A DNA stretch of 45,700 bases, taken from the NCBI GenBank assembly GCA_022787565.1, contig JALFVN010000021.1:1-45700 (forward strand). The letters run 5' to 3'. Position 1 is the stretch's first letter. The number at the start of each line of letters is the position of its first letter. Below, piece after piece: positions 30,186-45,700 of the stretch. This DNA comes from Clostridiales bacterium (GTDB lineage: Bacteria > Bacillota > Clostridia > Oscillospirales > Oscillospiraceae). The notes under the pieces were generated by a model. That model had not been told where the DNA came from, did no database searches, and worked only from the letters and a program-made list of their open reading frames with translations. The position numbers and the translations under genes were made by a program.

Positions 30186-30201
30186 TATCGTAATATCATG
30201 C

Positions 30202-30240
30202 TCCGCCGCCGGGAAACCGGCGGCGGACTTTTAATTTTAA
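30202..30240 (+). terminator. Intrinsic terminator of rplT operon
   Basis: An 11-bp stem TCCGCCGCCGG / CCGGCGGCGGA with GAAA tetraloop (30202-30227), followed by CTTTTAATTTT. Confidence 0.9.
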
Positions 30241-30248
30241 TAAGAAGT

Positions 30249-30767
30249 ATGGATTTGCCGAAGAGAAAAAGAAACCGTCTTGAAAACTGGGATTACAGCG
30301 CTAACGGAGCCTATTTTGTCACCATATGTACTTATAATAGAGAAACAATATTGGGCCGGGATGTAGGGGCGATTCACGAATCGCCCGCCACCGGCATAGC
30401 CTTGACCCAAATCGGGAAAATCGTGAGTGATACTGCGGAAACGCTGCCGCAGAGATTCCCGGAAATCAAACTTGAAAAATATGTGGTCATGCCGAACCAT
30501 GTCCATTTGCTCCTGCTGATCGACCGCGATCCACGGGCGATTCGTGAATCGCTCCTACAGAGCGGGAGATCACTGATTTCCAAAGTCGTTGGATATTTTA
30601 AGATGAATTCCAGCAAAAAAGCCCACAAGATTGAGCCGGGCTTAATGCTCTGGCAGAGGTCTTTCCACGATCATATAATACGGAATGACGTGGATTATCT
30701 TCGTATCTGGGAATATATTGATACAAACCCCATCAAGTGGCGCGAGGATTGCTTTTTCAAACTGTAG
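30249..30767 (+). CDS. REP-associated tyrosine transposase (RAYT, Y1_Tnp / IS200-like)
   Basis: 172 residues starting MDLPKRKRNRLENWDYSANG. I chose the ATG at 30249 because the longer reading would run through the rplT terminator. The HUH motif is VVMPNHVHLLLLI and the catalytic tyrosine region is SKVVGYFKMNSSKKAHKI. C-terminal WQRSFHDHIIRNDVDYLRI and YIDTNPIKW are typical of RAYTs, which move or maintain palindromic REP elements by single-strand transfer. Two copies of repeat B lie inside the gene in frame, adding GAIHESPA and RAIRESL between conserved blocks. Confidence 0.9.
   Translation: MDLPKRKRNRLENWDYSANGAYFVTICTYNRETILGRDVGAIHESPATGIALTQIGKIVSDTAETLPQRFPEIKLEKYVVMPNHVHLLLLIDRDPRAIRESLLQSGRSLISKVVGYFKMNSSKKAHKIEPGLMLWQRSFHDHIIRNDVDYLRIWEYIDTNPIKWREDCFFKL
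30363..30388 (+). repeat. Palindromic repeat family B, copy 4 (inside RAYT gene)
   Basis: GTAGGGGCGATTCACGAATC then GCCCGC, reverse complement of copy 2 except for one trailing base. Read through in frame in the transposase. Confidence 0.92.
30534..30558 (-). repeat. Palindromic repeat family B, copy 5 (inside RAYT gene)
   Basis: CGGGCGATTCGTGAATCGCT then CCTAC; one base different from copy 2. Opposite orientation to copy 4, 145 bases away. Confidence 0.92.
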
Positions 30768-33314: not shown

Positions 33315-33402
33315 GCGCGAGTGGTGGAATTGGCAGACTCGCTAGATTCAGGTTCTAGTGCTCACTCCGGGCGTGCGGGTTCAAGTCCCGCCTCGCGCAC
33401 CA
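33315..33402 (+). tRNA. tRNA-Leu (anticodon CAG)
   Basis: Acceptor GCGCGAG pairs with CTCGCGC. Anticodon stem CTAGA / TCTAG has loop TTCAGGT, anticodon CAG. A long variable arm (class II) and T arm GGTTCAAGTCC are present; CCA is encoded (33400-33402). The integrase gene downstream points at its 3' end, so this is the likely attachment site. Confidence 0.96.
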
Positions 33403-33406
33403 CATG

Positions 33407-33442
33407 CAGACCTCAAATCGAAAGATTTGGGGTCTGTTTTTT
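33407..33442 (+). terminator. Intrinsic terminator of tRNA-Leu
   Basis: CAGACCTCAAATC / GATTTGGGGTCTG stem with GAAA loop followed by six T. Confidence 0.9.
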
Positions 33443-33547
33443 GCATTTCAGGCATTTTTAGCGCATATCCCATTTTCGACCATCTTCGTCAGCGCTTGAC
33501 AAATGCGACGATTTCTAACATTTTTCTAACGCATTTCATCGGCGGTA

Positions 33548-34690
33548 TCAAAAAAGGCTTGCTTCCATTTTCTCAGTGAGCAATTGTTTCCTCTGGGTGT
33601 CCAGATGCCCGTAAATGTTTGCGGTCATTTGAATATCCGCGTGTCCCATGTATTCCTGAACGTCTTTCAGCGTAAATCCGTTATTCAGAAGCAGGCTCGC
33701 GCAGCTATGCCGGAGTTCATGGAAACGAATATGCGGCAGATGGTTGTTTTTCAAAAGAAGCGAAAAATGGGAGGATACATAGTCCGGCGAAAAAGGCTTG
33801 CCGTTGGGCCACTTGAAGATAAAATCATTCTGCTCATATTCATCGCCGCAGAGCTGGCGATTTATCCGCTCATCCGCTTTTGCCTTGAGAAATATTTCTC
33901 TGGCTTCCTGCGTCAAAGGGAAGGAACGATGGCTGGAGCTGTTTTTCGTCTTGTCTTTGCAGACGGCAGTTGTGACCTTTGACACGGTATGTTTGATCGT
34001 CAGCCGCCCGGCGGTAGAATCAACGCTGTCCCATTTCAATCCCAGGACTTCGCTTCGGCGAAGACCATACAGGGCAGTGATCTTCACGAGGGGATAGATC
34101 GGGTCGTCACAGATTGCATCAAAGAGGGTTTTGAGCTGGTCGGCATTATAATAGCTGGACTCATAGCGCTGCTTTTTCGGAAGCTCAACAAATTGACAGG
34201 GATTCGTTTGAATGATGCCGTTTTTCACAGCCTCATTCAGAGTCTGGTGGATAATATTTTTATACTGCCGCAGAGAGGCGGGGGATAGTCCTCCTTTTCC
34301 GTCTTTGCGGCCTTTTACCGCTTTTTCATCGAAAAAGGCCTGGAGCGTCTCCCGCGTTACATCCTGCAAAAGGATTCCGCTTTGCTCAAAATAGGGGATT
34401 ACCTGGGCATTTGCCATCAGCGAATACCCCTGAAAAGTCACAGAATCTACTCTGCGCTCGGCTACTTTCAGCCATGCACGGATATAATCGGAGAACAAAA
34501 TGCTGCACACAGGGCGCTCAGGGGCCTTCTCGTACGCCAAAAGCGTTTCTCGCAGGAGCTGTTCGGCTTTCCTCTTGTTTCCTTTTGCTTCGAGCCCGGT
34601 GGCAATCCATTTCTGTTTTCGCTTACCATTCTCTTTCAGGTTAATTATTATATAGAACTTGTCATTTTTGACTTGCAGGCTGCCTGTCAT
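33548..34690 (-). CDS. Phage/ICE-type tyrosine integrase
   Basis: 380 residues, typical of integrases of Gram-positive mobile elements. An N-terminal arm-binding domain (YIIINLKENGKRKQKWIATG) is followed by a SAM-like core-binding domain (about 65-170) and the catalytic domain. Catalytic residues visible are R in ALYGLRRSEVLGLKW, H-x-x-R in HELRHSCASLLL, H in YMGHADIQM and the nucleophile Y in TANIYGHLD. It performs site-specific integration and excision, presumably at the tRNA-Leu 3' end 145 bases away. The start overlaps the excisionase-like stop by 4 nt. Confidence 0.95.
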   Translation of the reverse strand: MTGSLQVKNDKFYIIINLKENGKRKQKWIATGLEAKGNKRKAEQLLRETLLAYEKAPERPVCSILFSDYIRAWLKVAERRVDSVTFQGYSLMANAQVIPYFEQSGILLQDVTRETLQAFFDEKAVKGRKDGKGGLSPASLRQYKNIIHQTLNEAVKNGIIQTNPCQFVELPKKQRYESSYYNADQLKTLFDAICDDPIYPLVKITALYGLRRSEVLGLKWDSVDSTAGRLTIKHTVSKVTTAVCKDKTKNSSSHRSFPLTQEAREIFLKAKADERINRQLCGDEYEQNDFIFKWPNGKPFSPDYVSSHFSLLLKNNHLPHIRFHELRHSCASLLLNNGFTLKDVQEYMGHADIQMTANIYGHLDTQRKQLLTEKMEASLF

Positions 34691-34920
34691 GGTATCTCCT
34701 TTCTGACAGTCGGATCAGTCTGTTTATCAGGTTCGTCAGCTGTGTTCCATGCAGAGGCAATATATTCAACGAGACAGGATTTCGGTACTCGGATGGATGA
34801 CCCAATTCGCAGATGGCGGATTGAATTATTGTTTATGAGCATATATGCGCTGTTGCGTCCGATATGCAGGGCCTGGCTGACCTGCGTAACGGTCAAAATA
34901 TCTGGGTAGGCTTCAAACAT
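34687..34920 (-). CDS. Excisionase-like helix-turn-helix protein
   Basis: 77 residues from the second ATG (34920); an ATG at 34944 adds eight residues. The MerR/excisionase-type winged HTH is seen in ILTVTQVSQALHIGRNSAYM, then RHLRIGSSIRVPKSCLVEYI. Such proteins direct integrases toward excision or regulate them. Immediately upstream of and overlapping the integrase gene, the usual order for these elements. The ribosome binding site is weak. Confidence 0.85.
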   Translation of the reverse strand: MFEAYPDILTVTQVSQALHIGRNSAYMLINNNSIRHLRIGSSIRVPKSCLVEYIASAWNTADEPDKQTDPTVRKEIP

Positions 34921-35130
34921 CGTTTTTCCCACTGGATTTTTCACTTGTGAAGACCGACGGATATCCCGAGATCGTGATTGCCCTGGCGTTATAGGGAAAG
35001 ACAGCTAAATCACCAATATAAATGACAGAATATTCAACATTTTCAAGGTACATAGGGAACACACTTCCTATACTAATTTTCTCATATATTTTGATCCTTG
35101 TCAAATTTCAGAGCACTTTTTTGAGGAAAT

Positions 35131-35155
35131 AATGCGTCTCACGGTGAAACACATT
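35131..35155. repeat. TTTCAC-N-GTGAAA palindrome, copy 1 (degenerate)
   Basis: AATGCGTCTCAC-G-GTGAAACACATT. Degenerate version of the palindrome at 42727 and 45538. Confidence 0.75.
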
Positions 35156-35624
35156 AATATGACAAAATCCGCACTTTACTTTGTGCGGATCATTTTTTAT
35201 CACGATATTTCTCAAAGGCAAAGTAGACGGCGGCGGGCCAGCCGCTCCATAGGATTTTCCGTGCCTCCCTCCATGCTTGTGGCGGGGCGTTCTACTCTGT
35301 GACGTGTAGCCAACGCAAGTATCATTGTTCCCGTCTGCGCATCATGGCCCGCGGCTCTGCCAAAGCTGCTTCACAGCGCGGTGTTTCCCGCTCGTCCCTT
35401 TTCTCTCCTCTCTGGGATCTGTCTTCGCGCACCCGCTGTACGGCTCAACGCAGGCAGAACGTATCTGTCTGCCCTATTCATTTTTCCTCGGATCGTCGAT
35501 CCGCGAAAACACATCAGCCCCGGTGTGCTTTGGCTGATCCACGACGAAAATAAATACGTTTCACGGTGAAAACGTATTAAACCAACTTGTCAGAAGGACG
35601 ATGCAGCCTCGTCCTTCCTTGCCT
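35156..35624. other. Non-coding stretch between element genes
   Basis: About 470 bases between two palindrome copies and the Spo0A-like gene. A hairpin ATCCGCAC / GTGCGGAT with TTTTTT on the plus-strand side lies at about 35166-35197. The rest contains short plus-strand open frames with unnatural composition and no family match, possibly decayed coding DNA. I see no supported gene. Confidence 0.5.
35552..35578. repeat. TTTCAC-N-GTGAAA palindrome, copy 2
   Basis: AATACGTTTCAC-G-GTGAAAACGTATT; the arms match over 12 bases with one inserted A. Confidence 0.82.
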
Positions 35625-36119
35625 TTAAGTCATGCCCTTTATGTATGCTGCCATCATGTCAATAAACTCCGCGTTGCTTGGAGCCTGCATAAGGGGCCTC
35701 CCGGCGATCTCATTCATCGCGTCCCGGTCCCCGTAGTCCCAGCAAGTATTAATCAGCGTTCGGAGCGCATGTTCCACGGAATGAGGCTTCACGCCAAAGC
35801 GCCTGGCTGTCTCCGGGTACAGACGCTTGGTGATGAGATGGATGCTCTCCTGAGAGCTTACGATTTGCTCTATCATGTATACGGCATAGTCAAAGCCAGT
35901 GTACCGCCCGGAAGCGCCAATGCTCCTGAGCAGCCGGTCAGCCGTAATGGGAATCCCGCCCTGCTTATCCGGCAGATAAATATAGAAAATATCTGAACCC
36001 TTCTTTCTTTTTTTGATGCAGGAAGGTCCAGAAAAGGAGGAGAACGGCAGTAGGGAAGGGACCGCTGCGTGTATAACTTCACTGCCTGACCTCACATAAT
36101 GTCTAAGCAAGAAGCACAT
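35625..36119 (-). CDS. Stand-alone Spo0A C-terminal-domain DNA-binding protein
   Basis: 164 residues. The C-terminal about 110 residues match the Spo0A effector domain: TGFDYAVYMIEQIVSSQESI, then HLITKRLYPETARRFGVKPH, VEHALRTLINTCWDYGD and SNAEFIDMMAAYI. In Spo0A this trimer of helices binds TGTCGAA-type boxes. No response-regulator receiver domain is present; the N-terminal about 50 residues are unlike it. The start at 36119 has only a loosely spaced AGAGG. It lies with the integrase and may be the element's regulator. Confidence 0.8.
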   Translation of the reverse strand: MCFLLRHYVRSGSEVIHAAVPSLLPFSSFSGPSCIKKRKKGSDIFYIYLPDKQGGIPITADRLLRSIGASGRYTGFDYAVYMIEQIVSSQESIHLITKRLYPETARRFGVKPHSVEHALRTLINTCWDYGDRDAMNEIAGRPLMQAPSNAEFIDMMAAYIKGMT

Positions 36120-36390
36120 TATTGTTCTCTGTTTCCTCTAATGTGCTTAAATTATACTATAAATACGGGCAATTTTGTTTATGAACACATCGCATAATGT
36201 CGCCGCAGCCTGTATGGCTGAAATGGATAACTGTCGAATTTCCTTTCGTGGTTTTGCGCATAAAGAAAAGTACCCCGCTTAAAACAGTTTGAAAAGAAGT
36301 ATAAAACAGTGACAGCCGACTCTTAAAAAGCCGGCTGTCAGCAAATTATTCGATATATTGTAATTTATTATGATATCAAATGTGCTGCAC
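36120..36390. other. Intergenic region with terminator hairpin
   Basis: 271 bases. A TATAAT on the minus strand (36151-36156) may be the -10 box of the Spo0A-like gene. No gene is seen. Confidence 0.5.
36310..36340 (-). terminator. Terminator hairpin of the lipoprotein pair
   Basis: Minus strand TGACAGCCGGC / GTCGGCTGTCA with loop of about 9 and downstream CTGTTTTAT. Located 50 bases after the last lipoprotein gene. Confidence 0.7.
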
Positions 36391-38526
36391 TCAGCTCTGC
36401 TCGGCCATGTAGATGCTGGCCCGGGACTGGATCAGGTCCACCGTATCTTCAAGGCTTCGCTGCCCGGCGAAATACGCGCTGGCCTCCGGCCAAACGATCT
36501 GCCAGATCTGCGGGTCATGCCGCGCTGCAAGGGAAGCGTTTTCAATAATGGCGGCAATTTCGTTCATGGCTTCCAGGCCGTATGGATGGATCCGGTCGTT
36601 TCCGTCCTCAACGACTTCTCTCCATGCCCGGTCAATTTGTTCCTGCATTCCATCCCGGCGGGGAGACAGAAAAAACTGGGTGTTATACTCCCGGGTGACA
36701 AATTGGCGTAAAAACGCCCAGCATTCCTCCTTGTTGGCGGAAAAGGAAGAAATGCCGAAGCTCAGCGAGGGATAGATCACATTTCCGATCTCCGGAAAGC
36801 CCACAAAACAGTAATTTTCTCCAAAGGCGCTGGGCGCGATGCTGGCCATCCAGATGTCCCCGATATTGCAGTAATACAAAAGCGATGTGCTGTTTTGCAC
36901 ATCGGTATTGAGTGTGCTGTACGCATGGGACAGCCCCTCTTCAGGGACCGTTTTGGCTGTCTCTATAATATTTTTAAAATAATCCGAATCAAAATAACAT
37001 TCTCCGGTTTCCCAGTTGACCAGCTTCTCCCCCGAGGCCGCGATAACGTTGCCAAGCCAAAAGGCTCTGCCGTAGTGATTGTCAAACAGAGTTTCCGCAT
37101 AGGGGCTTTGAGAAACAACGTCGTTTAAGTTCGCGTATGTCCAGGAAGAGGCTTCACCCACAGCTCCGGAATAAGCAAAGGATGTGGTCAGTGAATACTC
37201 CGGGACCAGTTGATACAGGCCGCCGCTGATCTCCAGAGAGCGTAAAACGCCGCTGAAGAAATCTTCCCGCGACAACTCCGGGTCTTTGTCGATATAAGGG
37301 TACAGGTCCTCCAGCAGCCCCCGACGCGCAAATGGTCCCGAGGACGGGATCGTATCAATGGAGACCATGGAGAAGTCATAAATGTCCGGAATCTTCCCGG
37401 AGAGGATATCCGCCGTCAGCTTCATCTGGGCGGCGCGATTATCCGTGCCGTCGCTGTATACGGAGTAGTTCACCACTTCAATAGGATACTGGGGGTTCTC
37501 CAAATTCCACTGGCGGATCGCCTCCTGGATCCGGTAGTCCAGCCCGTACTCGCTTGTGGTGGCCAGGAGGATGGTGGAGCCCTCCGCCGTGTCTGCCTCT
37601 TTGGGCGCAAGAGTGAGAAGGGGTGTGGGCTTGTCAAAGCTTATTTTTCCTGTGCAGATCAACTTGCTGTTTTCGGTCTCAACCACGGCTCCCCCTGTTA
37701 TGCTCAGACCGGTCCAGGAAAACAGCTTTTCCAAAGTCCGGTCCGCGAAACGATAGCCATACAGGCAGCTGCCGTCGTCCAGATAGAGGTCCCAGCTTTG
37801 CCCGGCTGCTATTCTTGAAAAAGACAGATTGAAGGCCGCCGCGGCTTCCAGGGTCTGCTTCTTGCTGTCCAGCCTGTACAGGCGGTATTTTCCGTCTTTA
37901 AGCTGCCCAAGAATCAGCTGCCCATCCCCGGTGACGGTCATTTTTGCGCCGGGTTCCACGTCCAGAGAGAAAATTTTCCTGAAGGGTTCTCCCGGCTTCG
38001 CCGCCGTCAACTGTTCATTGCTCAACAGGTAGATAACACCCTCCGCATACCTGATCTCCCTGACGGATGAATCTTCACCCATGTCCAGCGCGTCCAGCAT
38101 GTAGCTTCCCGCCTGCCTGCCCTCCGCGTCAATTTCGATGACCGCGCCGGCGTGGCTCTCGTCCAGGGGCAGGGCCAGAACGTAGATCTGCCCCTCCGGC
38201 GAGACGGTGAGGTCTCTTAGCATCTGGTCCGGAAAAGAACAGATCACCTGGCTGAGAGCGCTCTGGGGGTCATAGGCAAAGAGATAAGCGCCTTCACTGT
38301 CGCTGCCGGTATAGCAGACCCTGTCCCCGGACAGAGCTAGGGCGTCGTCGATCCATACAGCCCCGCTCTGCTCCGGAATTTCCACCGCGTACTTCAGCGG
38401 GACGATCTGCTCCGACACCTTCACCGCGTCGATCTCCGTAAGTTCCTCTTTGCCGCCGTCCTTGCTGCACGCGGCCAGGCCCAGCAGCAGAAAAAGCACA
38501 AGAAGAGAGAAAAGGATTCTTTTCAT
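36391..38526 (-). CDS. Lipoprotein: predicted beta-propeller-like N half plus extracellular solute-binding C half (paralog 2)
   Basis: 711 residues. Signal peptide with lipobox LLGLAACSKDG. Residues about 45-310 contain repeated strand units with S/T-P-E-G turns (LTVSPEGQIYVLALP, RYAEGVIYLLSNEQL, VTGDGQLILGQLKDGKYRLY), consistent with a propeller. From about 318 (TILLATTSEYGLDYRIQEAI) it resembles a family-1 solute-binding protein, with PDIYDFS, RRGLLEDLYPYIDKDPELSR and a C-terminal helix block. Clearly paralogous to the next gene across the whole length. No permease or ATPase gene adjoins it. Function unknown; ligand sensing is as likely as transport. Confidence 0.8.
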   Translation of the reverse strand: MKRILFSLLVLFLLLGLAACSKDGGKEELTEIDAVKVSEQIVPLKYAVEIPEQSGAVWIDDALALSGDRVCYTGSDSEGAYLFAYDPQSALSQVICSFPDQMLRDLTVSPEGQIYVLALPLDESHAGAVIEIDAEGRQAGSYMLDALDMGEDSSVREIRYAEGVIYLLSNEQLTAAKPGEPFRKIFSLDVEPGAKMTVTGDGQLILGQLKDGKYRLYRLDSKKQTLEAAAAFNLSFSRIAAGQSWDLYLDDGSCLYGYRFADRTLEKLFSWTGLSITGGAVVETENSKLICTGKISFDKPTPLLTLAPKEADTAEGSTILLATTSEYGLDYRIQEAIRQWNLENPQYPIEVVNYSVYSDGTDNRAAQMKLTADILSGKIPDIYDFSMVSIDTIPSSGPFARRGLLEDLYPYIDKDPELSREDFFSGVLRSLEISGGLYQLVPEYSLTTSFAYSGAVGEASSWTYANLNDVVSQSPYAETLFDNHYGRAFWLGNVIAASGEKLVNWETGECYFDSDYFKNIIETAKTVPEEGLSHAYSTLNTDVQNSTSLLYYCNIGDIWMASIAPSAFGENYCFVGFPEIGNVIYPSLSFGISSFSANKEECWAFLRQFVTREYNTQFFLSPRRDGMQEQIDRAWREVVEDGNDRIHPYGLEAMNEIAAIIENASLAARHDPQIWQIVWPEASAYFAGQRSLEDTVDLIQSRASIYMAEQS

Positions 38527-38552
38527 TTTTTACCTCCATTCGGTCCCTGTGG

Positions 38553-40685
38553 TTAGCCGGCCTGCTCAGCCATGTAGATGCTGACTCTCGACTGGATCAG
38601 GTTCATGGTATCTTCAACGCTCCGCTGATCGGCGAAATAGGCCCCCGCCTCAGAGTAAACGATCTGCCAGATCTGCGGGTCATGGCGGACCACCGTGTCC
38701 ACATTGATGATGATATCGGCCAGGGCGTTCATAGCTTCCAAACCGTAAGGGTGATATTGCCGGATCTCGCCGAAGCCCTCCCAGGTGTTGCTGATCTGGG
38801 CCCGCAGGCCGTCCAGCCGCGGCGTGATGAAGAATTTCAGCTGGTATTCTTTGGTTAAAAACTGCCGGAGAAACTGCCAGCACAGGTCCTTGTTGGGGGA
38901 ATAGGCGGAGATCCCATAGCTGCACAAAGGGTAGATCGCGCTGCCCACCTCCGGCAGGCCGGGGAAGCAATAGTCCTGCTGAAAGGCCTGGGGACCTGTG
39001 CTTGCCATCCACACATCGTTGGCGTTGATGTAGTACAGCAGGCCGGTACTCTCCGCCACCTCGTCGGCCAGAAGGGGTGTCTCCATCTCCATGCCCGTCT
39101 CGGGCATGGCTTTCATGGTCTCCAGAAGGCTCCGGAAATAGTCTGATGTAAAATAGCACTCACCGGCGGACCAATTTACCAGCTTGTTGCCGGAGGCGTC
39201 GACGATGTTTCCAAAAAGCCACATCCGGTCGTGGTGCTTGTCAAAGACAGAATCGAAACGGTCGCTGTTTTCGATGATCGCGTTGAAATTTGCATAGGTC
39301 CAGCCCTCCCGGGGCCCCACGGCGCTTGAAGCGGCAAAGGTTGTCACCAGTGAGAAGGCCGGGACTACCTCATATAACCCGCCGTTTATTTCCAGTGAGT
39401 GGATGACGCCTGGGATAAAGTCCTCCCGTGACAGCTCCGGGTCATTGTCGATATAGGGGTACAGGTCCTCCAGCAGTCCCCGCCGGGCAAACTGGGCTGA
39501 GGAGGGTATGCTGTCAATGGCGGTCAGGGAAAAATCATAGATATCCGGTATGTTTCCGGCGACCATATCGGCCATGAGCTTCACCGCTGAGGCGTTTTTA
39601 TCCTCGCCGCCGTATACGGAGTAATCGATAATTTCTATGGGGCACTGGGGGTTGTGGTTGTTCCAGTCCCTTATGGCCTCCTGGACCCGAAAATCAATCC
39701 CCGCCGGGTCGGTGGTGGCAAAGCGGATCACGCTGCTGCTCTCCTTGTCAATCTCCCGCGGCGTCAGAACCAGCAGAGGGCCGGGGGCGTCAAAGGAGAG
39801 GCGTCCGGAGCAGATCAACTTCCCGTCCGTTTCCGCCACGCTCCCCCGCAATATGCCGAGGCTGTTCCAGGAGAACAGCTTTTGAAATTCCTCTGTCTCA
39901 AAGCGATAGCCGTAAAGGGCGTTGCTGTCGCCGAGAAACACATCCCAGCTCTCCCCGCCGCAGACGTCGGAAAAAGGCATGTTGAAGGCGACGGAGCAAA
40001 GCAGTTCCAGCTTCTCCGTCGAATAGAGCTGTAGGCGGCATGTATTCTCCGCGTCGTTATACGCTAGAATAAGCTCCCCCTCAGCGGTGCAGGCCAGCCG
40101 GGCGGCGGGCTCTGCCGGTATTGACCGGTCCTGCCGGATCCCTTCCTCGACTTTCGCGGCGATTAGGGCCTTATCGCTCAGAATAAACAGCTTTCCACCG
40201 GCGTATTCGATCTGCTTCGGCAGCCGGTTTTCTTCCCCCATGAGCTTATTTAAGGCGCTTGTGCAGAGCACAGTTCCGTTTTGGTCCAGTTGGATGATCT
40301 CATATTCCCCGGCATCGGAGGCGGCGAGGAGAAACAAAACCCCTTCCGGCGAGGCTGCCACATCCCAAAAACTCTTTTCCCGGGAGGAAAAAAGCACGGT
40401 TTCTCTTGCTGCTTCCCCGTCGAAGCAGCACAGGTGATATGCCTCGCTGTCGCTGCCGATGTAATAGACCTTTCCGTCCAGGACAGTCAGCGCGTCGCTG
40501 GCCCAAATTTTGCTCTCCCTCTCATTTTCCACAAGGGAATAGCTGGGCGGAACGATTTTCCCGGACACGGAGGCCGCGTCGATCTCCGTGTCGGCCTTAT
40601 TGTTTGCCTCTTCTCTGCCGCTGCACGCGCTGAGGGCCAGGCAGAGGGCCAAAAGTAAAAGAAGAGTACACCGCTTTCTTTTCAT
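38553..40685 (-). CDS. Lipoprotein: predicted beta-propeller-like N half plus extracellular solute-binding C half (paralog 1)
   Basis: 710 residues. Lipobox LALSACSGREE. Same two-part layout as the downstream gene, with many identical blocks (GSDSEAYHLCCFD, PDIYDFS, FARRGLLEDLYPYIDNDPEL, RHDPQIWQIVYSEAGAYFAD, SRVSIYMAEQ). 26 bases separate the two genes, so they form one operon. It is divergent from the ECF sigma gene at 40816 across a 130-base shared upstream region. Confidence 0.8.
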   Translation of the reverse strand: MKRKRCTLLLLLALCLALSACSGREEANNKADTEIDAASVSGKIVPPSYSLVENERESKIWASDALTVLDGKVYYIGSDSEAYHLCCFDGEAARETVLFSSREKSFWDVAASPEGVLFLLAASDAGEYEIIQLDQNGTVLCTSALNKLMGEENRLPKQIEYAGGKLFILSDKALIAAKVEEGIRQDRSIPAEPAARLACTAEGELILAYNDAENTCRLQLYSTEKLELLCSVAFNMPFSDVCGGESWDVFLGDSNALYGYRFETEEFQKLFSWNSLGILRGSVAETDGKLICSGRLSFDAPGPLLVLTPREIDKESSSVIRFATTDPAGIDFRVQEAIRDWNNHNPQCPIEIIDYSVYGGEDKNASAVKLMADMVAGNIPDIYDFSLTAIDSIPSSAQFARRGLLEDLYPYIDNDPELSREDFIPGVIHSLEINGGLYEVVPAFSLVTTFAASSAVGPREGWTYANFNAIIENSDRFDSVFDKHHDRMWLFGNIVDASGNKLVNWSAGECYFTSDYFRSLLETMKAMPETGMEMETPLLADEVAESTGLLYYINANDVWMASTGPQAFQQDYCFPGLPEVGSAIYPLCSYGISAYSPNKDLCWQFLRQFLTKEYQLKFFITPRLDGLRAQISNTWEGFGEIRQYHPYGLEAMNALADIIINVDTVVRHDPQIWQIVYSEAGAYFADQRSVEDTMNLIQSRVSIYMAEQAG

Positions 40686-40765
40686 TTCTTTTTCTCCTTT
40701 GGTGAATGGATGGGGAAAACCCCTCTGCTACTTTATCCCTTCAGCACTCGAAAGGAGGGACAGGC

Positions 40766-40793
40766 TTTACAAAAAAATATTCTGTGATATGAT
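40766..40793 (+). promoter_or_regulatory. Promoter of the ECF sigma gene
   Basis: TTTACA (40766-40771), 16-base spacer, TATGAT (40788-40793), 22 bases before the start codon. A housekeeping-type promoter by appearance. Confidence 0.6.
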
Positions 40794-40815
40794 TCATCCC
40801 AAAGGGGGTGAGCCT

Positions 40816-41316
40816 ATGGCCGATTCATTTCTGGAAGATCTGTACCTGGAGATGTACAAAAAGCTGTATTATTACGCCTATGTGCGGCTGAAAGATGAGC
40901 AGCTGTCTCAGGAGGTCGTACAGGACGTGTTTGTCCTTGCCCAGGAAAAATTGGAGGCCCTGCGGCAAAGCCCCAACCCCCAGGGCTGGCTGATCCGGAC
41001 TGCGGGCTACACGGTCCTCCACGCCCAGCGGACCAGGCAGCTCATTCAGGCTCATTTTGCCCCTCTGGATGAGGAGATCATGGCCGCATCCCCGCCGGAA
41101 GAAGAGTTGGGCCTGCGCGAGCTGATGACGGAGGAAGAATGGCGGCTGATGAAGAGTGTTTACTGCGACGGCTATTCCATCAAGGAGGCGGCAGGCTTAT
41201 TCGGTCTCAGTTTGGAAGCCTGCCGGAAACGGCTCTACCGCCTGAAGCAGCGGCTGCGAAGCCAATTAAGAGAAGAACCGGACGCCGGGAAAGGAGGGGA
41301 AAATGATGCCGGATAA
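40816..41316 (+). CDS. ECF-type RNA polymerase sigma factor
   Basis: 166 residues from the ATG at 40816 (AAAGGGGG upstream); a longer open frame would run back through the divergent gene's start. Region 2 is in YYYAYVRLKDEQLSQEVVQD then VFVLAQEKLE and PQGWLIRTAGYTVL. Region 4 is in MTEEEWRLMKSVYCDGYSIK then EAAGLFGLSLEACRKRLYRL. Its stop overlaps the next gene by 14 nt. Likely partner of that membrane protein and possibly regulator of the divergent lipoproteins. Confidence 0.9.
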   Translation: MADSFLEDLYLEMYKKLYYYAYVRLKDEQLSQEVVQDVFVLAQEKLEALRQSPNPQGWLIRTAGYTVLHAQRTRQLIQAHFAPLDEEIMAASPPEEELGLRELMTEEEWRLMKSVYCDGYSIKEAAGLFGLSLEACRKRLYRLKQRLRSQLREEPDAGKGGENDAG

Positions 41317-42493
41317 ATTCAGGAAAAATGAACTGCAAAAGCTCTCCACGGCAGAGCTGGAGGAATTGATCCGCTCCATGCCGGCAGACATTGACCCCGA
41401 GGACTGGCTGCTGGTGATGGACGAATATACCAGCCGGGAAGAGGTCCCCGACGTGGACGCCGCCGCGGCGCTGGAAGCGTTCAAAACCGATTATGACGGG
41501 GCTGAGCCCGTATTTTCGGAGGTGGACGAACCCGGGGCCGATTCTCCCGCCTTCGGGCGCCGGAGACGGCGCGGGGCCCTGCGCATTCTGCTGGCGGCCG
41601 CCATTCTGACGGCGCTGTTTTCCGCCACCGCCTATGCCGCCGGCTGGTTCGGCCTGCGCTCCCGGGCCGTGCAGACCGGGATAGAGATCGACACCCCCGA
41701 TTTTGAGGCCGTGGGCAAAGAGGCCGCGGAGAAATCGGAGGCCGTGCTGCTGATCCCCGCCGGGTATCAGCAGTCAGCGGAATATCAGGCGGCAGAGGAA
41801 TGGTATGAAATAAATCTGCGCTACTGCCAGGAGAAAAACGCGGAATGTGAGGCCGCCGGTCAGGGCGCATGGGACTGGATGGACGTGGAAGCGGCAAAAG
41901 CGATTTTGGGCGACAGTCAGAGCATCTACAACGCCTTTGACGGGGTCCTTGCGGAAAAGCTGCTGGAGATCAGCGGAAAATACGGCGTGGCGCTCCACAG
42001 CGCCATGGCCTATCCCGCCTCCCTTTCGGAATTTTACCGTCTAACCGGCACGGAGCCCTTCGGCCTGCCGGAGTACGGGGAGCAGGTTCCCGCCTATGTG
42101 TTTGAGGACGGCTCCTTTCACGTTGAGGGGGCTTTCAGCCTTCACGGCGTCAGCTGCGATTTTTCGCTGGAGCGAGCCCTGGCCGGGACCCTGCCGCCCT
42201 ATAGCCGCCTGCTCCACGACCCGGACGCCTATGAGGAATGGGCCTATACCACGGCCTCGGGTGCGGCGGTCTGCATCGACTGGAGCAAGGAAGCGGATCA
42301 CATGTATTATGACTACGGGGAGGGCTCCGCCAAGCTCTGCTACGGGCACACGGTCACTGCCCACTACGCCCAGGACGGCGCTTTCCTCACCCTGTGGGGC
42401 TATGTCCCCGGCGGAAAAGAGGACGCCGAAGCCCTTGCCGATCTGTTCGACTTTGCCACAGCCTGCGCGGGACGTCCTGAATCAGCGGAATAA
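41303..42493 (+). CDS. Predicted anti-sigma factor, membrane anchored
   Basis: 396 residues (the start could also be the second Met). A cytoplasmic N-terminal helical part (KLSTAELEELIRSMPADIDP) is followed by one membrane segment after RRRRR (about 94-113). A large extracytoplasmic domain of about 280 residues, rich in acidic and aromatic residues, shows no motif I know. Overlap with the sigma gene and topology support an anti-sigma that senses a signal outside the membrane. Confidence 0.7.
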   Translation: MMPDKFRKNELQKLSTAELEELIRSMPADIDPEDWLLVMDEYTSREEVPDVDAAAALEAFKTDYDGAEPVFSEVDEPGADSPAFGRRRRRGALRILLAAAILTALFSATAYAAGWFGLRSRAVQTGIEIDTPDFEAVGKEAAEKSEAVLLIPAGYQQSAEYQAAEEWYEINLRYCQEKNAECEAAGQGAWDWMDVEAAKAILGDSQSIYNAFDGVLAEKLLEISGKYGVALHSAMAYPASLSEFYRLTGTEPFGLPEYGEQVPAYVFEDGSFHVEGAFSLHGVSCDFSLERALAGTLPPYSRLLHDPDAYEEWAYTTASGAAVCIDWSKEADHMYYDYGEGSAKLCYGHTVTAHYAQDGAFLTLWGYVPGGKEDAEALADLFDFATACAGRPESAE

Positions 42494-42687
42494 ACGCGAA
42501 AAGGAATACGCCTTGATGAAAGACGTATTCCTTTCCCTGCCTGGGTGTACGCTCTTTAAGAGCGGGGACCAGTCCCGCATCTATGCAGCCGCACTGCTCC
42601 ACGCACCAGCTCGCAAAAATGGGGATTATTGTCTGCCCTGAGCCATTTATTTTTCTCAATATTTCTGCTCGCAAGCAAATCAGCCTG

Positions 42688-42753
42688 AAAATCACGGTGA
42701 AACACAGTTCCCCCAATCCCCCAAGGAAATGCGTTTCACCGTGAAACGCATTT
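42688..42753. repeat. Composite palindrome repeat, left flank of AbiE module
   Basis: Half-site AAATCACGGTGAAAC (42688-42702), a 24-base spacer, then the full palindrome AAATGCGTTTCAC-C-GTGAAACGCATTT (42727-42753). The half-site can also pair with the palindrome. Same layout at 45508-45564. Confidence 0.92.
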
Positions 42754-42888
42754 GCCCAAATACGCCCAGTTGAAATGGACCTGATTGGGGAGCCTTGATT
42801 ATGCTCTGCGGCTTGATCCCACTTTTCGAATCATCTGCATTTTGCATAACTTTGTCCGGTCAAAATAATATTGTGTAAAAAAGTCATG

Positions 42889-42917
42889 TTGACGGTATGA
42901 ACAAAACGGGTTATAAT
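42889..42917 (+). promoter_or_regulatory. Promoter of the AbiE-nuclease operon
   Basis: TTGACG (42889-42894), 17-base spacer, consensus TATAAT (42912-42917). Confidence 0.88.
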
Positions 42918-42982
42918 AGTTTGACATTACTTTATCCGCTTCAATGGCTAAAATGGTGGAAAGTCAGAAAGGTACTGCACGC

Positions 42983-43582
42983 ATGACTGGTGTAGAAGAT
43001 TACAAGAATATATTTGCGCGATACGGTGGGATGATGCGTACAAAACAGCTGGAGGAAGAAAACATTCTCTATCGCAAGGTACAACAGCTCATTCAGGAAG
43101 GCTATGTGGAGAAGCTTCGCTATGGTTATTATCGATGGGTCAATCCAGATGATTTCAGCGAGGTTGGCATCATAAAATGCCTTTTCCCGGATGCTGTTCT
43201 CTGCATGAATACCGCTTTGCGCTATTATGAATACAGCGACCGGACACCCGGTGATTGGCATCTGGCTGTCAGCAAGGATTCCGGCAAATCTCGCTTCAAA
43301 ATTGATTATCCGTTTATAAAACCTTACTATGTAGAGCCTTCCATTCTGGAGCTGGGCCTGACTCGCGGAGAAATGGATGGGCACGACATCCGTATCTACG
43401 ACAAAGACCGTGTCATTTGTGACTGCCTGCGTTATCGCAATAAAATGGACAAAGAAATTTTTAATAAAGCGATTCAGAGCTACATCAATGATCCCGGAAA
43501 AAGCATCCCCAAGCTTCTGGAATACGCTGAACCATTGCGAGTAAAGAAAATAGCAAAAGAGTTGATAGGAGTGTGGCTGTAA
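42983..43582 (+). CDS. abiEi: AbiEi-type antitoxin (type IV toxin-antitoxin)
   Basis: 199 residues from the ATG at 42983 (AAAGG about 10 bases upstream); an ATG at 42944 adds 13 residues but lacks a ribosome binding site. The winged-helix N-terminus reads FARYGGMMRTKQLEEENILY, LIQEGYVEKLRYGYYRW. The central domain contains FPDAVLCMNTALRYYEYSDR and the C-terminal part DKDRVICDCLRYRNKMDKEIF, all as in AbiEi. AbiEi represses its operon and counteracts the AbiEii toxin, usually without direct binding. First gene of a three-gene unit. Confidence 0.88.
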   Translation: MTGVEDYKNIFARYGGMMRTKQLEEENILYRKVQQLIQEGYVEKLRYGYYRWVNPDDFSEVGIIKCLFPDAVLCMNTALRYYEYSDRTPGDWHLAVSKDSGKSRFKIDYPFIKPYYVEPSILELGLTRGEMDGHDIRIYDKDRVICDCLRYRNKMDKEIFNKAIQSYINDPGKSIPKLLEYAEPLRVKKIAKELIGVWL

Positions 43583-43606
43583 GCCGCTTATTCTGGAGGA
43601 ACGATT

Positions 43607-44515
43607 ATGGCTGTAAGGGGAAAAAGCATCAACCTGTTTTTGATGGATGGAAAGGCCGATGGACGCATTAAATGCACATTAGCCAATTGGACCGGTATTG
43701 CATATAAAATCCCTCGCACTGATATTGACTTGTGCAGGGATCGTGAGGACCTGAAGCAGAGTGGCGTCTATTTTCTGCTTGGCGTTTCTGATGAAACTGG
43801 CGAAAACATAGTTTATATCGGACAAGCTGGTGAACGCAAGAACGGTGAGGGAATCCTATATAGACTTCAAGAGCATAAACGAAATCCAGATAAGGATTAC
43901 TGGACAGAGGCCGTTGTTTTTACTACTGCAAACAATTCTTTCGGACCAACTGAAATCAGCTATCTTGAGCACCGCTTCTGTAAACTGGCTAAGGATGCAA
44001 AGCGATATAAGGTTAAAAATGGGAATGATCCAACACCTGGGCATATAACTGAAGAAAAGGAATGTGAGTTAGAGGAGTTCATTGAGTATGCGCAGCTTAT
44101 CATGGGAACACTCGGGCATAAAGTTTTTATTCCGCTTCAAGGTACTGTGATGGCCGAAGATGATAATCCTTTAAGTATTGCAGTTGAACAAGAACTCCAT
44201 TTGAAACATTCAAAGATTAAAGCGTCCGGAAAGCGTACCAGCGATGGTTTTGTTGTTCTTAAAGGAAGCCAGGTTGCTGTGACTGAGTCAAAAAGCTGCC
44301 CCGGTACAATCCGCAACCTTCGGCAGAAATATGCTGAGAAAATATCTGCTGATGGCAAGCTGACCGAAGATATTGGATTCAGCAGCCCTTCTGCCGCAGC
44401 CGGATTTGTGTCTTACTCCAGCGTGAACGGATTGATCGCGTGGGTGTCTGATGATGGAAAAACATTGAAGGATTTGGAGAACAATTCCTTAACAGAGGAG
44501 ATAGCTTATGTCTGA
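43607..44515 (+). CDS. GIY-YIG nuclease with DUF4357 domain
   Basis: 302 residues. GIY-YIG motif as GVYFLLGVSDETGENIVYIG (about 49-68), followed by the arginine helix LYRLQEHKRNP and the glutamate in EISYLEHRFCKLA. The C-terminal about 90 residues (SDGFVVLKGSQVAVTESKSC then GFSSPSAAAGFVSYSSVNG) match DUF4357, commonly joined to GIY-YIG domains. Likely a DNA-cutting enzyme. GGAGG lies 7 bases before the ATG. It is embedded between the AbiEi and AbiEii genes: 24 bases after the first and overlapping the second by 8. Confidence 0.92.
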   Translation: MAVRGKSINLFLMDGKADGRIKCTLANWTGIAYKIPRTDIDLCRDREDLKQSGVYFLLGVSDETGENIVYIGQAGERKNGEGILYRLQEHKRNPDKDYWTEAVVFTTANNSFGPTEISYLEHRFCKLAKDAKRYKVKNGNDPTPGHITEEKECELEEFIEYAQLIMGTLGHKVFIPLQGTVMAEDDNPLSIAVEQELHLKHSKIKASGKRTSDGFVVLKGSQVAVTESKSCPGTIRNLRQKYAEKISADGKLTEDIGFSSPSAAAGFVSYSSVNGLIAWVSDDGKTLKDLENNSLTEEIAYV

Positions 44516-45410
44516 TCTTGCTGCTTCTGTTCTTGCAAAACTGAAAAATAGGGCAAAGGCCTCCGGCATCAGCTATCAGCAGTGTCTGCAGCTCTTCTTT
44601 CAGGAAGAGTTTCTGCGCAGGCTGGCAGCTTCAAAATATGCTGAGAATTTTGTGCTGAAGGGCGGCCTTTTCATTTATACCCTGACCAACTTTGAGAGCC
44701 GTGCCACCGTTGATGTGGACTTCCTGATGCGCGGTCTGAACAACGATCTGGCTCGCATGGATGAGATTATTGCCGAAATTTTGGCTGTCCCCACCGGAAA
44801 CGACTTTGTGACATTCAAAACTTCCAAGGCCGAGCCGATCGCCCTACAGCGCAAATACCATGGCGTCAGTATGCAGATCACCGGATACATAAAGAACGTA
44901 CGAGTGCCCTTTAATGTGGACATCGGCGTTGGTGACGTCATCATTCCTCACCCGGAGCGGCGCAGCATACAGACACAGCTGGACGGTTATGAAAAACCGG
45001 AGATATTGACTTATTCCCTGGAGAGCACGATTGCCGAAAAGTTCGATGCTATTCTGCAGCGCTTTGAACTTACCGGTCGCATGAAGGACTTCTACGATAT
45101 TTACTACCTGTCCCGCACTTTTGATTTCGATGGACTGAAGTTGCAGACAGCAATTCAGGAAACACTTCAGAACCGCGGCACCGCTTATGAAAAAGAAAGC
45201 TTCAACCGCGTTATTGCACTGGCTGATGATGAGGATATGCAGACCAAGTGGCGCTTCTTCCTGAAGACACTGGGCAATCCGGAGATTTCGTTTCAGGATA
45301 TTATGATGGGTATTCAGTGCTTCCTGGCTCCCGTCTGGGAAGCAATATTGAAACAAGATGAGCTTTTGGCAGTATGGCGCTCTGATCATGCAGAATGGAG
45401 TATCCCGTAA
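44508..45410 (+). CDS. abiEii: AbiEii/AbiGii-type nucleotidyltransferase toxin
   Basis: 300 residues. AbiEii motifs are visible: KGGLFIYTLTNFESRATVDV then DFLMRG (GG and DxD-type metal site, about 48-73), the central ESTIAEKFDAILQRFEL with the conserved lysine, and RMKDFYDIYYLSRTF (KDxxD motif). AbiEii toxins transfer nucleotides (GTP in AbiE) and stop growth or phage propagation. GAGGAG upstream; start overlaps the nuclease stop. Confidence 0.93.
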   Translation: MSDLAASVLAKLKNRAKASGISYQQCLQLFFQEEFLRRLAASKYAENFVLKGGLFIYTLTNFESRATVDVDFLMRGLNNDLARMDEIIAEILAVPTGNDFVTFKTSKAEPIALQRKYHGVSMQITGYIKNVRVPFNVDIGVGDVIIPHPERRSIQTQLDGYEKPEILTYSLESTIAEKFDAILQRFELTGRMKDFYDIYYLSRTFDFDGLKLQTAIQETLQNRGTAYEKESFNRVIALADDEDMQTKWRFFLKTLGNPEISFQDIMMGIQCFLAPVWEAILKQDELLAVWRSDHAEWSIP

Positions 45411-45700
45411 TTCATACACTGCATTTTGAATTTACGTCTGCAATAAATGGAAAGAATTTTGGCGCAGTACAGCAACGCACAAAAAGCTCATAAATTAATC
45501 TTTGCCTAAAATCACGGTGAAAAACATTTCTCCCGGGAAATGCGTTTCACCGTGAAACGTATTTTTTATTGATTTGATAGACGGAAATCTTCTTATAAGC
45601 CCGCGCAAGTGTTTATAAAACCTCGCGAAAATGGCTTAAAATCAAGGTTTTCTGCATATCGTCATTTATCTTGCCATATCTCCGTATAAGATGATTTTGT
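45411..45700. other. Right flank of the AbiE module to window end
   Basis: 290 bases, AT-rich, with the composite palindrome at 45508-45564 and no gene that I can support. Confidence 0.6.
45508..45564. repeat. Composite palindrome repeat, right flank of AbiE module
   Basis: Half-site AAATCACGGTGAAAA (45508-45522), spacer containing TCCCGGGA, then AAATGCGTTTCAC-C-GTGAAACGTATTT (45538-45564). Same orientation and order as the left flank copy. Confidence 0.92.

Follow-up and report, generated by a model that had tools for sequence, protein, structure and literature searches.

An apparently intact PDC-S14-type nuclease gene lies between the two halves of an AbiE operon

AbiE is described in PMC3985639 as a bicistronic type IV toxin–antitoxin (TA) system. 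AbiEi acts both as repressor of the operon and as antidote to AbiEii, the toxin, which is predicted to be a nucleotidyltransferase and causes reversible arrest. In such a type IV system the toxin is bacteriostatic and its antitoxin counters it without contact. Defence modules inside other defence operons are already known, among them TgvAB within a type I restriction–modification (R-M) operon and the HEC systems (PMC11411939). Here we analyse 45,700 nucleotides from a Clostridiales bacterium (contig JALFVN010000021.1 of assembly GCA_022787565.1; this whole stretch is the window), in which a gene for a nuclease with GIY-YIG and DUF4357 domains separates abiEi from abiEii. The nuclease falls into PDC-S14, a PADLOC candidate from the ‘guilt-by-embedding’ set that overlaps GAO_29, a family called restriction-like (PMC10855318). 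We found no description of a PDC-S14 or GIY-YIG nuclease inside AbiE in the parts of the literature covered by our search, which did not include the embedding preprint of Payne et al. With a probability of roughly 0.68, we read the locus as an autonomous, single-gene PDC-S14-type nuclease that was horizontally acquired and inserted at the exact abiEi/abiEii boundary of a canonical AbiE operon in DNA derived from an integrative and conjugative element (ICE). The insertion is real, precise and still intact in appearance, and it gives no evidence of a new conserved three-gene system; the locus defines no new system. It shares with TgvAB the placing of a defence module within another defence operon, whereas TgvAB, as presented in PMC11411939, lies in an R-M operon rather than a TA pair and belongs to the GmrSD family rather than to GIY-YIG.

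All three genes lie in series on the plus strand, each confirmed as an open reading frame (ORF) in the window. The antitoxin gene abiEi (ORF 42944-43582) has a strong match to the PADLOC AbiEi profile (2.6e-77), whereas the Pfam family AbiEi_4 reaches only 0.04, under the cut-off. It stands upstream of the toxin gene, as AbiE type IV systems require. Its likelier start is the ATG at 42983, because the −10 element of the promoter ends at 42917; by eye, AGAAAGG precedes this ATG. The nuclease gene (43607-44515), present as a single copy in the source genome, follows, and then abiEii (44508-45410), whose product matches AbiEii in both PADLOC (4.8e-93) and Pfam (2.7e-47) and keeps the motifs GG, DxD and K...R..DxYD that form invariant columns among 15 relatives, as expected of an AbiE nucleotidyltransferase toxin. 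The order of antitoxin and toxin and the conserved toxin positions are thus those of AbiE. The known system, as far as PMC3985639 presents it, is bicistronic; here the two ORFs are 925 nt apart and the nuclease fills the gap.

A sigma-70-type promoter (TTGACG-17-TATAAT, 42889-42917, plus strand) matches the consensus at 11 of 12 positions, although promoter-like sites are not in excess across 42400-45700 (7 compared with 5.3 in shuffled sequence). It is flanked by two ATCCGCT-like direct repeats, one on each side (42851-42944, plus strand; by eye), which may form an AbiEi operator. A similar promoter and similar repeats were seen, both by eye, ahead of abiEi in the two-gene relative described below (L023). 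The sequence-only reading of this DNA had proposed a single operon of abiEi, nuclease and abiEii in which the last two genes overlap by 8 nt. The ORFs, the PADLOC profiles and the near-consensus promoter bear out the operon, with joint transcription as the probable consequence, and the overlap lies at 44508-44515.

The unoccupied site is known to the base. L023 is a two-gene AbiE locus with an AbiEii 82% identical to that of the window. The alignment of its DNA to the window breaks off after 43580 and resumes at 44508, which leaves a surplus of 927 bp (43581-44507, plus strand) that is missing in L023 and falls exactly between the abiEi stop and the abiEii start. The two genes of L023 share the overlap TGATG. 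The abiEi gene of the window ends in TAA, the nuclease has a Shine–Dalgarno-like site of its own (GGAGG), and the 3′ end of the nuclease gene supplies GAGGAG ahead of the abiEii ATG. These junctions are what would be expected if the insertion came before, or survived only with, continued coupling of abiEii. The motif TGGCTGTAAG is present at both the end of abiEi and the start of the nuclease gene, and we considered insertion by microhomology; the shared motif is only suggestive, because L023 has TGGCTGTGATGG at that place. The locus thus offers an example, with its unoccupied site, of a free defence gene entering another defence operon, and the gene overlap of the outer operon has been retained in a new form after the insertion.

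Such an arrangement could also arise by misassembly, given that the three-gene order occurs in one assembly only, a genome of 2.63 Mb with a completeness of 99.14 and a contamination of 4.04, in which the window is contig C60 of 77. Both junctions, however, lie at gene boundaries with Shine–Dalgarno-like sites and an overlap, an outcome that a misjoin would be unlikely to give, and a chimera is the least probable of the explanations we weighed.

The sequence-only reading had suggested that the three genes form either a combined defence system or a nuclease guarded by the TA pair, and had proposed a genome search for the same order. Of 300 family genomes, 38 carry AbiEii; the order has it in 32 of 295 and the class, by profile search, in 86 of 341. 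We assembled 63 AbiE loci: 30 from the AbiEii search of the family (the window included), 5 viral (two of them, L186 and L187, look alike) and 28 new ones from the class profile search, the 30 and the 28 being the best of longer lists. Both genes are present in 61 of the 63, again with the window included, while L031 and L034 have no AbiEi. None of the 60 other pairs holds a gene between its halves; the spacing ranges from overlaps to 71 nt and is mostly −4, −8 or −10.

The converse search gave the same answer. Counting partial matches, the nuclease query hit 21 of the 300 genomes in the family set, 21 of the 295 in the order set and 7 of the 101 in the genus set. The genome collection holds at least 535 relatives, from which the best 80 were fetched, and viral contigs added 22 loci. 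Of the 122 nuclease loci that we compared, 119 pass the nuclease profile (some are partial or contain DUF4357 only, and L106 and L136 look like one contig), and in none, nearest relatives included, does the nuclease lie inside an AbiE pair. This count applies to flanks of about 1.5 kb for L002-L021 and to many loci that reach a contig end, and it depends on AbiE profiles built from 28 and 29 proteins of the family’s loci, which may miss remote AbiE. A 30-base pattern spanning the junction had no match in the viral contigs (viral_contigs), and no near match to 42600-45700 was found among plasmids and phages. In the sets searched, the embedding is seen once, here. Two loci have AbiE or AbiEi-like genes in the vicinity of the nuclease: in a Turicibacter metagenome-assembled genome (L110) an AbiE pair lies 2.8 kb away on the opposite strand, and in L054 a weak AbiEi-like match (8e-4) lies 2.6 kb away. 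L110 also has type III R-M genes, and these, the AbiE pair and the nuclease all fall within 7 kb.

Co-occurrence of the two genes was counted by matching genomes by eye between the family and order match lists. In the family, 5 of 300 genomes carry both (expected 2.7, p=0.11; p=0.22 with the source genome removed); in the order, 6 of 295 do (expected 2.3, p=0.017; p=0.046 with the source genome removed). Among these co-carrying genomes, only the source genome has both genes on one contig. An absence of co-occurrence, which the sequence-only reading had named as grounds for abandoning the idea, is only roughly what these counts show, with slight co-occurrence in the order.

A true three-part system, in which the nuclease and AbiE cooperate and DNA cleavage or its products trigger growth arrest by AbiEii, would account for the operon-like run of genes, the 8-nt overlap, the undecayed state of the nuclease and the slight co-occurrence in the order. 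The lack of a second case, with 60 of 60 other AbiE pairs empty and 0 of 122 nuclease loci inside AbiE, makes cooperation of this kind quite improbable, and on the same counts we reject a conserved three-gene system for the sets examined. Together with the unoccupied site in a close relative, they leave both the combined and the guarded version of the earlier proposal without support: nearly all relatives lack the nuclease at this position.

We surveyed the neighbourhoods of the nuclease relatives at 76 of the 80 fetched loci (L060, L061, L069 and L123 fell out at ORF matching), naming each cluster of neighbours from one representative. A restriction gene lies within 6 kb of the nuclease in 38 of the 76 (type I in 23, type III in 13 and GmrSD in 5) and directly adjoins it in 28. 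In 14 loci, several of them near-identical copies, hsdR stands directly upstream on the same strand, with a gap of at most 56 nt in 10 of the 14. As a yardstick, 118 class genomes gave 90 match rows for HSDR_N, some of them two pieces of one gene. From this we estimate, at about 2.6 Mb per genome, that about 0.2 HSDR_N would be expected in the 782 kb of loci compared with the 16 loci observed, a rough comparison since the nuclease loci span more classes than the yardstick. Mapped on the nuclease tree, the R-M label changes 26 times compared with 27.2 in shuffles (196 of 500 shuffles are as low). Near-identical nucleases (L067, L087 and L095) occur across genera and, going by their labels, across phyla, pointing to recent transfer; a broader set of identical or near-identical PDC-S14 nucleases across genera and labelled phyla comprises L105 with L109, and L067, L087, L092 and L095. 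The scatter of the R-M label and the near-identical copies in distant hosts together point to frequent transfer of the family and repeated attachment to R-M systems. The survey thus presents PDC-S14 nucleases as mobile genes that often accompany restriction systems; this would fit a type IV role, directed at modified DNA.

The same neighbourhoods bear on two further explanations. If the position between antitoxin and toxin made loss of the nuclease costly, the pair would act as an addictive guard, and it is in keeping with this that AbiE can stabilise mobile elements, as reported in PMC3985639, and that the module lies in ICE-like DNA. Relatives of the nuclease, however, occur without AbiE nearby. 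By eye, the closest of them, L052 and L053, come with their own promoter-like sequences, and no AbiE was found within the DNA of their loci. Loss of the nuclease alone would restore a normal two-gene operon, which would make the guard a weak one; we regard guarding as very unlikely. A shade less probable again is that the nuclease is a free-standing homing endonuclease like I-TevI, which moved into the gene boundary by its own activity. This idea is suggested by I-TevI being the best structural match and by the exactness of the insertion, for which a relative has the empty site. Against it, relatives of the nuclease occupy other sites (14 of 76 directly follow hsdR), 0 of the 60 other AbiE junctions are occupied, and the C terminus is a DUF4357 domain; we know of no DUF4357 that serves as a homing DNA-binding module.

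The PDC-S14 assignment rests on PADLOC profile PDLC04925, which covers residues 1-293 of the 302 (1e-109), so that the window protein is a near full-length match that differs from the described candidate in lying inside AbiE. The architecture is GIY-YIG at the N terminus and DUF4357, similar to RAMA, at the C terminus (Pfam DUF4357, 3.2e-12). No GIY-YIG family of Pfam matched at E<=1; the assignment comes from residues that do not vary and from a structural match of modest quality, best to I-TevI, which together give the fold, the two GIY/YIG tyrosines and the catalytic arginine and glutamate that define the superfamily. Y55, Y70, G72, R86 and E121 are invariant in 37 nuclease sequences and H90 is nearly so (residue roles follow PMC12923530, the variant names of the structural match and general background on the superfamily). 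L097, which has a stop within the matched stretch, was excluded from the structure alignment; its open part entered the tree. All candidate catalytic residues (Y55, Y70, R86, H90 and E121) are intact in the window, so the mutated active site that would have marked the position as accidental was not found. Profile A3 had no match among PDB sequences, and an NCBIfam search gave nothing relevant.

Domains and neighbours suggest that the nuclease is perhaps a modification-dependent (type IV) restriction enzyme. The closest described parallel is CMoRE/PD-T4-3, a GIY-YIG type IV restriction enzyme that acts on modified DNA (PMC12923530). Two observations weigh against our preferred explanation. The third tyrosine of the CMoRE GIYxY motif is missing, the nuclease reading GVYFL with L57 invariant in the 37 sequences, despite the role on modified DNA that we propose. 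And in the one Pseudomonas aeruginosa panel reported in PMC10855318, PDC-S14 was no marker of resistance, 57% of 14 carriers being susceptible, which counts against a strong role in defence. The C terminus of the window protein, DUF4357/RAMA-like, is a further difference from CMoRE as that source describes it.

If the insertion of an autonomous nuclease is the right explanation, the three genes would be co-transcribed from one AbiEi-repressed promoter, and the nuclease would be translated from its own GGAGG site. Its C terminus is about 7 residues longer than those of L052 and L053 (by eye), and this short extension would bring in GAGGAG and the overlap that keep abiEii translationally coupled. 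The nuclease would then be a restriction enzyme that works by itself, perhaps cutting modified phage DNA that its C-terminal domain senses, and AbiE would act separately through reversible growth arrest. It is also conceivable, if unlikely, that this is a young two-layer operon in which AbiEi controls both the nuclease and AbiEii, such that a phage disturbing AbiEi would step up DNA cleavage and, after it, growth arrest; on this view selection, not accident, would account for the insertion.

The module is AT-richer than its surroundings, as the sequence-only reading had said, with a G+C content of 0.42-0.50 across 42500-45499 compared with 0.51-0.63 to the left (38000-42499). That reading had also seen a movable cassette bracketed by matching palindromes. 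The composite palindromes are there, in the same orientation, at 42688-42758 and 45508-45564 (the latter also terminator-like), and the setting does look mobile and ICE-like; what falls away is that they are ends specific to a cassette. They are dispersed repeats, and bracketing by them is weak evidence for a cassette, because a third copy lies at 35131-35155 and the source genome has 13 copies in all (up to 3 mismatches; contigs C1, C38 and C60). It is also found in 32 of 101 genus genomes (up to 2 mismatches), and a reversed control gave no match in the source genome or in the genus genomes. An 11-mer of the palindrome (up to 1 mismatch) matches 9 times in the window compared with a shuffle mean of 0.61. 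The 25-bp family AATGCGTTTCACCGTGAAACGCATT occupies 35131-35155, 42728-42752 and 45539-45563 in the window and occurs in C1 and C38. Copies cluster on some contigs, such as the ICE-like C1, and in several C1 ORFs the palindrome is translated as FHRET, which hints at a small repeat capable of insertion.

The window contains an ICE end at a tRNA-Leu gene (33315-33402), with a tyrosine integrase, an HTH_17 protein and a Spo0A_C-domain protein; within this end (33315-36263) the last of these lies close to a palindrome. Two segments match C1, 35131-35543 at 93% and 35553-36263 at 88% identity; this contig encodes a relaxase, a coupling protein and a P-loop transfer ATPase. Nearer the module, the minus strand carries at 42539-42622 a relic of an ICE lysozyme/CHAP gene that shares 74% identity with C1:15553-15635; 41303-42490 had no Pfam match. 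The C1 identities, the CHAP relic and the distribution of the palindrome lead us to place the module most likely in ICE-derived DNA, of which the palindromes would be repeats. The loci taken at the module stop at 45700, so the contig apparently ends there and the right flank can be read no further.

Elsewhere in the window, a small gene at 30198-30767 has GGGGCGATTCACGAATCGCCC palindromic DNA inside its ORF and presumably resembles a REP-associated tyrosine transposase, and 36391-40685 encodes two similar proteins in tandem (711 and 710 amino acids) that, by eye, resemble solute-binding lipoproteins.
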